Source: Stakelama portus | Lineage (GTDB): Bacteria > Pseudomonadota > Alphaproteobacteria > Sphingomonadales > Sphingomonadaceae | Assembly (NCBI RefSeq): GCF_003171655.1 | Contig: NZ_QFZL01000005.1 | Coordinates: 62,001 to 126,000, forward strand | Length of the DNA stretch: 64,000 nucleotides | Direction of reading: 5' to 3' | Shown here: positions 24,520-28,554 of the stretch, piece after piece | Numbering within the stretch: the first letter of the stretch is position 1 | Layout of the letters: every line of letters begins with the position of its first letter | The notes under the pieces: generated by a model | What the model saw: the letters and a program-made list of their open reading frames with translations, nothing else | Database searches by the model: none | What the model was told of the DNA's origin: nothing | Made by a program: the position numbers and the translations under genes

Positions 24520-25530
24520 TCAGCGCTCCAGAATGGTCCGGTACAGCGCGAGATATTTGCGCGCCATCGCCTGGGCAGTGAAACGTTCCTCGACCGAGTT
24601 GCGGCACGCCCGGCGGCTGATTTCGCCGATCTGTTCCAGCGCCTCGACGGCCTCGCCTCTGTCATGGACCAGAAATCCGGTCACGCCATCGGTGATCAGT
24701 TCGGGCATGCTGCCGCGATTGATCGCGATCACCGGGGTCCCGCACGCCATCGCCTCGACCACGCTCAGGCCGAACGGCTCGTCGAAATCGATCAGGTGCA
24801 GCATCGCCCGCGCATTGCCCAGCGCCTTTATCCGCGCCTCGCCACCAACCGGGCCATGCCAGACGATCTGCTCGCCATCGACATGCGGCTCGACTTCGCG
24901 CTCAAAATAGCCCTTGTCCTGCACGATCCCGTAGAGATGGAGGCGCAGGCCGGCGGCCTTCGCCACCGCGATCGCTTCTGCCGCCCCCTTGTCGGGATGG
25001 ATACGCCCAAAGAACAACAGGTCGTCGCTGCCCCGGGCATCGAAGGCAAAATCCTCGATCCGGATGCCGTGATGAATCGTGGCGGCATAGCGAAGATCCT
25101 TGTGCCGGTCGGCCGCGCTGATCGCGACATAATGGACGCGATCCTCGAACGGCTTGTACATCGGCAGGATGCGGGGGCTGGAAAAGCCGTGGATCGTCGT
25201 CACCATCGGCGTATCGACCAGCGGCGCAAAGGCATGCGCCGGAAAATCGGCCTGATTGTGAATCAGGTCGAATTCGCCCGCGCGCGAAAAGACATGGCTC
25301 AGATGGCGATATTCCCACACCTTGGCGTCAAGGCTGCGATCCTCTTCATATCCGCGCGGCACCACGCCATCGAGCGCGCCGGAGGTTTCCGAATCCCGCG
25401 TCGCGAACAGCGTGACGTCGACGCCCTCGGCCACCAGCGCCTCGGTCAGAATGCTCGTCACCAGTTCCCACGGGCCGTAATGGCGCGGCGGCGTGCGCCA
25501 TGCGACGGGCGCGATCATTGCGATCCTCAT
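24520..25530 (-). CDS. Glycosyltransferase family 4
   Basis: 336 residues, GT-B fold. N-terminal MRIAMIAPVAWRTPPRHYGP, the central LLFFGRIHPDKG and the C-terminal EPFGLSVVEAMACGTPVIAI motif with the EX7E pair characteristic of retaining GT4 enzymes. It transfers a sugar from an activated donor. ATG at 25530 overlaps the start region of the GH13 stop by 4 bases. It is the last gene of a GH130-GH13-GT4 unit, which suggests synthesis and recycling of a small oligosaccharide or glycoside. Confidence 0.88.
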   Translation of the reverse strand: MRIAMIAPVAWRTPPRHYGPWELVTSILTEALVAEGVDVTLFATRDSETSGALDGVVPRGYEEDRSLDAKVWEYRHLSHVFSRAGEFDLIHNQADFPAHAFAPLVDTPMVTTIHGFSSPRILPMYKPFEDRVHYVAISAADRHKDLRYAATIHHGIRIEDFAFDARGSDDLLFFGRIHPDKGAAEAIAVAKAAGLRLHLYGIVQDKGYFEREVEPHVDGEQIVWHGPVGGEARIKALGNARAMLHLIDFDEPFGLSVVEAMACGTPVIAINRGSMPELITDGVTGFLVHDRGEAVEALEQIGEISRRACRNSVEERFTAQAMARKYLALYRTILER

Positions 25531-27110
25531 CCCAAAATCACTCCCTCGTTGCGGCGCAGCTGCGGCGGCTCGCCATCGCCATGCGTCGACAGCAGGACGC
25601 GCAACCCCCGCGCCCATTCGGGCAGTTCGAAACGCTGCGGCGCGTCGGTAAGGTTGAGCAGCACCAGCAGCCGGTCGTCGCCGTCGCGCCGTTCATAGGC
25701 AAGTACGGCATCATTGCCGGCCACGGGCAACCAGTCGCCCACCGACAGCGCGGGATGCCGCCGCCGCAGCGCCAGCAGGTCGTGATGCAGCCGCCACATC
25801 GACCGCGTCTCGCGGCGCTGCGCGGCAACATTGCGCGTCTGCCAGTCGCCATGCATCGGCAGCCAGGGGTCACCGTCGCTGAACCCGCCATTGGGCGCGC
25901 CGTCCCATGCCATCGGCGTCCGCACCGGATCGCGCCCCAGCCCCTTGCCCGGCTCGTTGAGCTCGCGCGGGTCGTGGATACGTTCCGCCGGAATGGCGAC
26001 ATCGGCCATCCCGATCTCGTCGCCATAATAAATCGTCGGCGTGCCGCGCAGCGTCAGCAACAACATCGCCGCAACCCGCGCCTGCGCCGGTCCGACACGC
26101 GTCGCGGCGCGCGGCCGATCGTGATTGCCCAGCACCCAGTTGGGCCAGCCGCCCGCGGGCAGCGCCGCTTCATATTCGGCGATCAGCCGCGCGAGCGCCG
26201 GAGCATCCCAGGGCGCCTCGATCAGCTGAAAATTGAACGGCAGATGCACTTCGGGTTCGCCGCGCCCATAATAGTCCATCAGCTTTTCGACCGGCAGATA
26301 GATTTCGCCGATCAGCACGCGCGCCGGGGTATAACGCTCCGCCAGCCTGCGCATCGCCGCCGCGATCCCATGCACTTCGGGCTGGTCGGTCGAATGGAGC
26401 TGGAACACGCGCAGCATCTCGCCCATCGCCGGGGTCCAGTCGGGATTGGCAGGATTGTCGGGAAAATCGGCGTGCTTGACCATGTGCCAGAGCACGTCGA
26501 TGCGGAAACCGTCGATCCCCCGGTCGAGCCAGAAGCGCAGCACGTCGAGCATCGCTTCGACCACTTGCGGATTGCGCCAGTTGAGGTCGGGCTGCGCCTT
26601 CAGGAACGCGTGGTAATAATATTGGCCGGTCGCCGCGTCCCATTCCCATGCCGATCCGCCGAAATCGCTGATCCAGTTGTTGGGCGGGTGGCGATTGCCC
26701 TCGGCATCGATCACCGGATCGCGCCAGAGATACCAGTCGCGCCTGGGATTATCGCGGCTCGACCGGCTTTCGAGGAACCAGCGATGCTGATCCGAAGTGT
26801 GATTGGGCACGAAATCGAGCAGGATCTTGAGGCCGCGCGCGTGGCACGCCGCAATCAGCGCATCGAGATCGTCGAGCGTGCCGAACCGCGCATCGACATC
26901 GCAATAATCGGCGACGTCATATCCGAAATCCGCCATCGGCGAAGGAAAGATCGGCGAAATCCAGATCGCATCGATGCCCAGCGCCACCAGATCGTCGAGC
27001 CGCGTGGCGATTCCGCGAAGGTCGCCGATCCCGTCGCCGTTCGAATCCTGGAAACTGCGCGGATAGATTTGATAGATCACGCCGCGTTGCCACCAGGCCG
27101 GTTCGGTCAT
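25527..27110 (-). CDS. GH13 alpha-glucosidase/alpha-amylase family enzyme
   Basis: 527 residues. (beta/alpha)8 barrel with the seven GH13 regions: IDAIWISPIFPSPMADFGYD, LLDFVPNHTS, GFRIDVLWH (nucleophile Asp), VLIGEIY (acid Glu), LGNHDRP (third Asp), then a small C-terminal beta domain. The QIYPRSFQDSNGDGIGDL opening is typical of alpha-glucosidases/oligo-1,6-glucosidases rather than long-chain amylases. No signal peptide, so it is cytoplasmic. It overlaps the GT4 gene by 4 bases. Confidence 0.93.
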   Translation of the reverse strand: MTEPAWWQRGVIYQIYPRSFQDSNGDGIGDLRGIATRLDDLVALGIDAIWISPIFPSPMADFGYDVADYCDVDARFGTLDDLDALIAACHARGLKILLDFVPNHTSDQHRWFLESRSSRDNPRRDWYLWRDPVIDAEGNRHPPNNWISDFGGSAWEWDAATGQYYYHAFLKAQPDLNWRNPQVVEAMLDVLRFWLDRGIDGFRIDVLWHMVKHADFPDNPANPDWTPAMGEMLRVFQLHSTDQPEVHGIAAAMRRLAERYTPARVLIGEIYLPVEKLMDYYGRGEPEVHLPFNFQLIEAPWDAPALARLIAEYEAALPAGGWPNWVLGNHDRPRAATRVGPAQARVAAMLLLTLRGTPTIYYGDEIGMADVAIPAERIHDPRELNEPGKGLGRDPVRTPMAWDGAPNGGFSDGDPWLPMHGDWQTRNVAAQRRETRSMWRLHHDLLALRRRHPALSVGDWLPVAGNDAVLAYERRDGDDRLLVLLNLTDAPQRFELPEWARGLRVLLSTHGDGEPPQLRRNEGVILG

Positions 27111-27172
27111 CGCACGTCTCCCTTCGCACCCGCAGCATAGCGCGGGCGTGCATCGGAAGGAATCCCGCGTCT

Positions 27173-27437
27173 AGGTCGTGAACCCATAAACGGCACCGAC
27201 GAGGCGCCGGAATGGCAAACATATCGGGCCAAAGTGGCCGCCGGGAGGGCTGGGCGCCCTTCCAAGGCCGCTTTGGGTCGAGATGGAAGCCATTCCGGCG
27301 TCCGCAAGGATTTGACCAAAATGGCCCGGCGCTGCGTCGGCAGAGCTTGAAATATCGCCATATTCCTGCGCCCTGCCTCCTTGCGCTGAGCCATTTTGCC
27401 TCAAACCTCGGCGGCGCCCTTTATGGGTTCACGACCT
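27173..27437. mobile_element. MITE-like element with 32-bp terminal inverted repeats
   Basis: The left end (27173-27204) and right end (27406-27437) are inverted copies: the outer 18 bases, AGGTCGTGAACCCATAAA, are identical and the next 14 differ at three positions. The 265-base body has no convincing gene. No target duplication is visible next to the ends (TCT versus GGC), so the true boundaries may differ by a few bases. The right end contains the stop codon of the GH130 gene. It is probably mobilised in trans by an insertion sequence with matching ends elsewhere in the genome. Confidence 0.8.
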
Positions 27438-28554
27438 GGCCAAATCGTTCCTTGGCGATATGCGTCACGCGACACGCCAGGTCCGCTTCGCCCGACGCGA
27501 CGATATAATGATCGCCCGCATCCGCCAGGCCGGTGGTGAACACCACCGGGGTCGGCAGGTACATCTGATGCGCGATGCTCTGGGTCAGCGCCGGATCGGC
27601 TTCGATCAGCGGCGTGGCGTCCTCCTGCCGCACGATGCGAGTCGGATCGTCGCGGTCGAGCAGCGCCCAGAAGGTGCGATAGATGCCCACCGAATCGCGC
27701 TTTTCGACGCCGTGATAGAGCATCAGCCATCCCGCGGGAGTCAGCACCGGCTGCGAACCCCCGCCGACCCGCAGCGCCGACGTCGAATCCTTTCGCGCGC
27801 GCAGCCCCGGAGCATCGGCGGGCTTCCAGTGCAGCCCGTCGGGCGACGATGCGAAGTGGATCGCTGGCCCGCCCGCAAAAATGCTGTCGGGCGGCGGCGC
27901 GAAATAGCATTCGCCAAGCGGCCGGGTCAGCGCCATGAACTTGCCACCCGGCTTGCCCTCGAACAGCACCATGTCCTTGTTCTGATGATCGAGCACCACG
28001 CCCATCGGCTCGTAATCGAGACCGTTTACCGAGCGGTACATCGCGGTACAGTGCCGTTCGGACGATACCGCGCACACCGTCATCCACCAGCATCCGCCGA
28101 CCAGGCTGATCCGCGCATCCTCGATGCCATATTCCATATACGACGCGCCTGGCGCGACTGCCTTGTCGTAATGGACCTTCACCACCTGTCGGGCGTCGCG
28201 CGACAATTCGACCGGCAACAGCCAGGAAAGCGACGTCAGCCCCAGCTGCGGCGGATGCCGCCCGCGCAGCGCGAACTGGCGCGGGTCGTTCATTTCGATC
28301 CCCGCCACCGGATGCCGGTCGATCCGATAACGGCCCGCCTCCCACCGGATCGCCAGCGCATGCCCGTCGACGACCGGATCGGTCAGCGCTTCGGCGACGC
28401 GCACCATCATCAGCAAATTGCCGCCCGGCAACCGCGCCAGCCCGGGATTGAACGCACCGAGCACATAAGTCGGCACATCGATGCCATTGCGCAGCGGCGA
28501 GCGTGTCAGATCGACATCGTCCGGGCGAAAGATCAGATAATCATTGTCACCCAT
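27421..28554 (-). CDS. GH130 family glycoside phosphorylase/hydrolase
   Basis: 377 residues, five-bladed propeller of GH130: FNPGLARLPGG, GIEDARISLVGG, the HQNKDMVLFEGK block holding the proposed proton-relay residue, and GGGSQPVLTPAGWLMLYHG. Family members phosphorolyse or hydrolyse beta-mannosides. The last residues (QVVNP-stop) are read from the inverted repeat of the adjacent mobile element, so the native C-terminus was probably replaced. It heads the GH130-GH13-GT4 unit on the minus strand. Confidence 0.88.
   Translation of the reverse strand: MGDNDYLIFRPDDVDLTRSPLRNGIDVPTYVLGAFNPGLARLPGGNLLMMVRVAEALTDPVVDGHALAIRWEAGRYRIDRHPVAGIEMNDPRQFALRGRHPPQLGLTSLSWLLPVELSRDARQVVKVHYDKAVAPGASYMEYGIEDARISLVGGCWWMTVCAVSSERHCTAMYRSVNGLDYEPMGVVLDHQNKDMVLFEGKPGGKFMALTRPLGECYFAPPPDSIFAGGPAIHFASSPDGLHWKPADAPGLRARKDSTSALRVGGGSQPVLTPAGWLMLYHGVEKRDSVGIYRTFWALLDRDDPTRIVRQEDATPLIEADPALTQSIAHQMYLPTPVVFTTGLADAGDHYIVASGEADLACRVTHIAKERFGQVVNP

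Follow-up and report, generated by a model that had tools for sequence, protein, structure and literature searches.

IS711 belongs to the IS427 group (IS5 family). In the available parts of the cited sources, IS711 is described as duplicating the TA of its YTAR target (PMC2266754), and direct repeats of 2 are given in 10 of the 11 rows for the IS427 group (PMC3281130). The accessible text of the former also ties the palindromic Bru-RS repeats of Brucella to IS711 (PMC2266754), and bacterial MITEs such as MITEPsy1 (IS5?) and MiniMdi3 are presented, in the portions at hand, as short, non-autonomous elements with inverted ends and several copies (PMC3189936, PMC2680597, PMC10969869). The window analysed here, a stretch of 64,000 nt from Stakelama portus, contains an element that resembles such MITEs in all these respects and that, like Bru-RS, is described as a palindromic repeat tied to an IS with a YTAR target. 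It shares with the IS427 group (IS427, IS1248, ISPpa2) the type of ends, the 2-bp TA duplication and the YTAR target, but is without a transposase, measures about 264 nt and matches nine IS-bearing sequences well only over the terminal 17–20 nt. We put a probability of about 0.88 on the account as a whole, according to which a non-autonomous element with IS427-group ends inserted at a YTAR site into the TAG stop codon of a GH130 gene, this TAG was later changed to CAG, and the element belongs to an order-wide family with a cloverleaf fold whose ends have been exchanged.

The sequence-only reading had proposed an inverted-end element of 265 nt between the GH130 and GH13 genes. The element is present, with inverted repeats of 32 nt (27173–27204 and 27406–27437, 91% complementary, spacing 201 nt), and its length is 263 nt instead of 265 (Table 1). 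Both of its ends are GGTCGTGAACCCATAAA, and the flanking TA on the left and TG on the right correspond to a TA duplication of which one copy has mutated. No ORF of 100 amino acids was found inside the 263 nt, and the element is thus without a transposase gene. A branched fold was predicted for the element strand (z = −13.9). Rfam covariance models run against positions 26900–27700 matched nothing at E values up to 1, which rules out a known Rfam RNA, and a consensus scan saw no promoter-like sites near the element and one terminator-like site; the uncoupling of the downstream GH13–GT4 genes, which the sequence-only reading had raised, is conjectural. Terminal inverted repeats, a target-site duplication, the lack of a transposase, dispersed copies, empty sites and an autonomous partner, by which a MITE is recognised, were all found for the window element. 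The near-perfect ends had also been taken as a sign of recent insertion, which is unsafe, as the ends of 63 family members have a median of 27 of 28 matches, with at least 26 in 59 of the 63 and 25 in the lowest.

Table 1. Positions of the element, its parts and the neighbouring genes within the window.
Feature	Position	Strand	Remarks
MITE	27174..27436	.	263 nt; commonest family length 264 nt
Left terminal inverted repeat	27174..27204	+	begins GGTCGTGAACCCATAAACGG
Right terminal inverted repeat	27406..27436	-	holds present GH130 stop codon
Target-site duplication, intact copy TA	27172..27173	.	cf. empty site in relative G218
Target-site duplication, second copy, now TG (minus strand CA)	27437..27438	.	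T-to-C change would have opened the old stop
Arm 2, conserved 95-nt hairpin (covariance model R1)	27311..27405	-	113.8 bits
Arm 3 hairpin	27205..27300	.	27205–27239 paired with 27266–27300
GH130 gene (Pfam Glyco_hydro_130)	27421..28554	-	ORF and Pfam
GH13 gene (Alpha-amylase domain)	25527..27110	-	start 63 nt from element; Pfam
GT4-type glycosyltransferase	24520..25518	-	Pfam; beyond GH13 gene
CAG GTC GTG AAC CCA TAA	27421..27438	-	CAG, former stop position; then element-encoded VVNP and stop

A genome search for the repeated end sequence, which had been suggested as a check, was positive. With up to 2 mismatches, the 17-nt end occurs at 44 places in the 3.85-Mb genome, compared with 0 for a reversed-pattern control, and a chance inverted repeat is thereby ruled out. 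Full-length alignments to the 265-nt query were obtained at nine places, including the window copy. Among 13 two-ended copies, 11 have TA on both sides, the window copy has TA and TG, and another has CA and TA; three consist of almost nothing but ends (52–53 nt) and one is internally deleted (158 nt). According to our own gene calls, the 52–53-nt elements at L020, L021 and L071 all lie in gene stop codons. Several contigs end inside repeats (C18 at both ends; C1, C3 and C10 at their starts; C2 at its end), so that the assembly is broken there and the copy number is a lower bound. A 452-codon gene without a Pfam family is located between two inverted copies (C10:763541–765509; L003, L007), one of which lies in the stop codon of the gene, and the gene together with its flanking MITEs could be movable as a cassette.

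The joined flanks of 12 copies were searched in the relative G218, and six matched across the join. Three of these six have a TAG stop exactly at the target, in one case for two convergent genes on both strands, and the other three have no TA at the site, the gene ending with TGA there in one of them. The remaining six flank queries matched in parts only (four) or not at all (two). For one of the part-only matches (C15:181383), the corresponding place in G218 (L157 1502–1824, on its contig C16) is common to the window genome and holds a full MITE beside an older 53-nt copy.

Out of 295 genomes from the genus, 29 contain the exact 17-nt end, the window genome being one of them, and an IS5 transposase lies within 1.4 kb on the inner side of 11 of 29 exact ends in the fetched loci. 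A search for a transposase with matching ends, also suggested earlier, was thus successful in other genomes, where IS5-family elements with the same ends exist. The complete 823-bp element of Sphingomonas paeninsulae reads TA-GGTCGTGAACCCATAAACGG...GGCC-TAG; its first 20 bases are the same as those of the MITE, TA is present on both sides, and its transposase ends with ...YESTA, the TA of the following TAG being supplied by the target duplication. IS427-like transposase frames without a stop codon of their own, ending ...GCC-TAG by use of the TA of the target duplication, were observed at L125 (1501–2631), L486 (604–1429) and L218 (1–130). The transposase matched model IS5_3 (NF033580) in two parts, with E values of 3e-49 and 2.7e-41, and is 83% identical to an annotated IS427 transposase. 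Two overlapping ORFs joined by frameshift characterise the IS427 group; here, two frames were seen in L125, and a single annotated CDS in L482 and L486. In the window genome, the final 41 residues of a transposase of this type are encoded, with 98% identity, at three contig ends, read as contig-end pieces only. Contig C16 of the same genome (81664–82332, L214) encodes an IS5 relative of 64% identity in an unbroken 224-codon frame, whose ends, GGTCGTAGACTCATAAA and GGCTGTAAACTCATAAA, are similar but not identical to the MITE ends and which is a possible resident helper of the MITE.

Comparison of the MITE with nine IS-bearing sequences gave a good match only over the terminal 17–20 nt, plus two weak inner matches (E = 0.05), which rules out that the MITE core is an internal deletion of any of these nine sequences. 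YTAR is present at 23 of 25 targets and absent from the other two. In a wider set of 72 bounded family copies, 53 are flanked by TA left and right, with YTAR as the target in 49 of the 53. A transposase would be expected to act in trans on the GGTCGTGAACCCATAAA ends and to insert the element at YTAR, with duplication of TA.

The locus was compared with that of relatives, as the sequence-only reading had advised, and G218 was found to be without the element here. Its GH130 protein is 96% identical and has a TAG stop, the empty site reads GAACGATTTGGC-TAG, the flank is identical at 625 of 668 positions, and the window has GGC-CA-(element)-TA-GACG at the matching site. In 14 of 15 more distant relatives, taken from plus-oriented loci that could be read, the GH130 stop is TGA, which offers no TA, so that the TAG target is particular to the window genome and G218. 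As read from these sequences, the target of the insertion is the TA of the GH130 gene's own TAG stop codon. The element would have inserted at this TA, and TA plus the first G of the element would have rebuilt TAG, as suggested by the empty site and by other copies that still show TAG. Subsequently, a single T-to-C change would have converted TAG into CAG, so that translation now continues for five more codons, up to a TAA within the terminal repeat; this order of events is read from one relative (G218).

The present GH130 frame runs through CAG into the element and ends at TAA 27423–27421. The earlier claims that a MITE-like insertion supplies the GH130 stop, and that the frame ends in the right repeat with element-encoded last residues, agree with the genome copies, the repeated ends, the TA duplication and the empty site, with two amendments. 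First, VVNP is encoded by the element, but the preceding Q is specified by the mutated copy of the target duplication together with the first base of the element. Second, the earlier reading missed that the gene's own stop codon had been the target, the present stop having apparently taken over only after the later point change. The Pfam stretch of GH130 ends at residue 369, and the added tail lies past it. Since G is the first base at both ends of the element, TA plus G remakes TAG on whichever side a gene ends, so that by sequence logic an insertion into a TAR stop should be silent for the protein, as is seen at many other junctions. Genes of two other genomes (L135 1501, L147 1501) were observed to run into the same end sequence and to stop at the same TAA, with CGA or GCA in place of TA.

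For a null distribution of stop codons, genes were called by codon usage in 38 stretches of 20 kb and in the window, and each YTAR site there was given a simulated insertion. It comprises 561 sites, of which 64 are in a gene stop, 129 inside genes and 368 between genes; this total leaves out two further stretches, on C16 and C18, and includes a stretch with an unmasked MITE copy (L177), whose only possible effect is a higher number of stops in the null. Gene ends were taken from a home-made codon-usage caller, and 13 of 18 proteins checked, including those of three window genes, had a Pfam family and five had none. Nine of the 13 two-ended copies are in stop codons, as eight form the stop of the neighbouring gene now and the window copy would have done so before its mutation; relative to the non-coding null share of 64/432 this gives a binomial p of 1.4e-5, to be read with the caveat that there are several copies per genome and these are hence not independent. 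Two copies in the window genome lie in a stop common to two convergent genes. Of single-ended or contig-end matches, some of which are IS or decayed ends, 5/20 form a stop, and among the two-ended copies of G218 itself one of four lies in a stop, on both sides.

In a second genome (G185), 6 of 12 copies of a sister element are in stops, with null counts of 16 stop, 74 coding and 106 other sites. An order sample of 69 copies was derived from the better-scoring model matches (74 loci, from which 2 were dropped for lack of ends and 3 for short flanks); 36 copies lie in stops and a further 11 at a distance of up to 30 nt. The corresponding numbers in the local null are 35 and 12 of 225 non-coding sites, to which 66 coding sites are to be added. 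Overall, stops account for 13–16% of the non-coding YTAR null sites. When all positions within 30 nt of a gene 3' end were considered, 20 of 25 copies and 115 of 554 non-coding null sites qualified (p = 1.3e-9). Among these near-3' sites, the ratio of stops to others was 14:6 for the copies and 80:35 for the null (Fisher p = 1.0), and in the order sample it was 36:11 and 35:12. The stop share near 3' ends thus equals that of the null, so that the bias is for gene 3' ends, with stops being its main part, and a strict preference for stops over other 3'-end sites is ruled out.

We give even odds to the explanation that the stop bias merely records where insertions survive or targets lie, YTAR sites at 3' ends being harmless and insertions elsewhere being lost, so that the element would have no preference of its own for stops. 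The equal stop shares of copies and null near 3' ends are what this explanation leads one to expect, yet the loss would have to be strong to give 20/25 against 115/554, and 6 of the 13 copies lie only 39–86 nt upstream of the start of a neighbouring gene. Furthermore, gene stops are formed by none of 11 ends of transposase-bearing IS versus 41 of 138 MITE junctions (p = 0.035), a comparison of small sample size.

Family searches were performed with a covariance model of one arm. Within the genus, 4 of 295 genomes gave matches at E up to 0.001; in the order sample, 67 of 396 genomes, from 22 of 84 genera, did so at E up to 0.0001. The ends could be set in 72 of the 74 loci examined, from 28 genomes, and 58 of these 72 bounded copies, from 23 genomes, are exactly 264 nt long. 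A gap-free stack of 63 elements, picked for this exact length, gave one common predicted cloverleaf of 99 pairs with 97.6% of the cells paired, the structure being predicted from the same rows. Changes on both sides were found in 71 of the 99 pairs, compared with a mean of 48.6 and a maximum of 55 in 200 shuffles, and in 980 cells versus a shuffle mean of 279; shuffling leaves relatedness in, and sliding the partners by one or two keeps it. With partners slid in this way, at most 35 pairs and 46% paired cells resulted, although slid structures usually fare worse than one that was derived from the very rows on which it is scored. In 29 distinct rows of the single arm, 20 of 36 pairs had changes on both sides. 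Unpaired stretches (AGGAG, around GGAATAT, CGACG) are conserved as well.

An exact-motif scan found at least 115 stretches, and the named carriers among the 80 matches listed include Novosphingobium, Sphingopyxis, Sphingobium, Erythrobacter, Altererythrobacter, Tsuneonella and Stakelama. The motif is also carried by plasmids of Novosphingobium and Sphingopyxis (4 records), the phage records searched gave no match, and in a phylum sample of 398 it was present in the window genome only. The exact motif occurs in only 29 of 81 model-aligned arms and is therefore a poor probe for spread. No description of this repeat family was found in open-licence papers.

That the paired stem changes arose from repair or template switching in palindromes, and not from selection for structure, seems to us rather unlikely. 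Near-perfect ends (26 or more of 28 positions matching in 59 of the 63 elements) are compatible with it, as are the exact mirror images formed by the end differences of two copy pairs. Nevertheless, the unpaired stretches are conserved too, most bounded copies are of one length, and pure correction would be expected to remove bulges rather than to fix loops. We hold it to be improbable that the element is a bidirectional transcription terminator or an mRNA 3' cap, kept at gene ends for that purpose. The very stable predicted fold would suit such a role, as would the 3'-end bias with its stops common to convergent genes; yet positions 26900–27600 contain a single terminator-like site, close to the shuffle mean of 0.7 by consensus scan only, and the element is also found between co-directional genes such as GH130 and GH13. 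A plain Rho-independent terminator is ruled out within the reach of the same consensus scan, as a GC-rich stem followed by a T-run is not above chance.

Among the 63 elements, there are 24 different sequences of the first 12 bases. Two copies in genome G462 have an identity of 98% across 199 inner bases, but of 45% across the first 20; of their 32 differences, 14 fall in bases 1–25, 14 at the mirror positions 240–264 and 4 in the 214 positions between. A pair in G431 has the same mirror pattern, with 93% identity inside and 40% at the ends, and 14 plus 14 differences at the ends and 13 between. As judged from these alignments, both ends are shown to have been replaced together, with the length unchanged, at least twice. 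The route may have been a recombination that replaced one end, after which the other end would have been copied from the first through the palindrome. Such an exchange would let different IS427-like transposases move the element, and the ends were probably exchanged to borrow them. Four other genomes (G511, G388, G636, G368) each have two or more end types that are clearly distinct, but there the insides differ too (61–87% identity), so that these cases speak neither for nor against exchange. A gradual divergence from one ancestral end without exchange, with which the first GG and scattered bases common to the end types and the parallel differences of ends and insides in these four genomes would agree, is rejected as highly improbable given the mirror-image differences of the G462 pair (14/25 and 14/25 at the ends against 4/214 between) and of the G431 pair (14 and 14 against 13).

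The head of the hairpin, GCAGGAATATNNNNATATTTCNAG, sits in an internal loop of the AAGGA/GACGC kind, and was found several times each in a few assemblies of Clostridia, Oscillospiraceae and Chromatiaceae. Of 24 loci from these and other odd taxa, 10 have inverted ends and 14 have none; nine of the 10 measure 98–166 nt and have other ends, and one is of the usual size and end type. Palindromes with the head motif and other ends were observed at L383, L390, L401, L424 and other loci in Clostridia and Chromatiaceae assemblies, and the motif was also seen in six viral contigs (L466–L471). The loci outside the order were chosen by the head motif, which makes their model scores partly circular, and the metagenome assemblies may be mixed; the head outside the order is a lead only. 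A tentative wider view, which we hold to be possible at somewhat less than even odds, is that of an order-wide parasite of parasites, about 264 nt long, which has a cloverleaf core under selection and both ends of which are traded for different IS427-like transposases, with stops as silent landing sites (TA plus G giving TAG) and a head also found on palindromes of Clostridia and Chromatiaceae. If this were true, the head would be a module that is recognised as such and predates all of the ends.

What happened at the locus is of a common type, although its history is a neat one; more unusual is the family from which the element comes. Compared with bacterial MITEs as described in the available text of the cited sources, it is distinguished by a near-fixed length, a cloverleaf with many paired changes, exchangeable ends and a bias to gene ends and stop codons. 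The near-fixed length, the conserved loops and the paired changes lead to the proposition, open to experiment, that the interior of a MITE has a role, and the mirror-image end differences between copies that are otherwise 98% identical provide a natural case for how a non-autonomous element changes its transposase. At the level of the protein, a target TA that combines with a leading G into a stop codon would allow mobile DNA to insert harmlessly at the border of a coding region, and the protein can gain residues from the insertion at a later time. Rickettsia palindromic elements (RPE) are likewise repeats that code for part of host proteins, but, in the portion of the source at hand, they are in-frame insertions within ORFs (PMC10969869), whereas the window element encodes only the last residues, after a lost stop codon.
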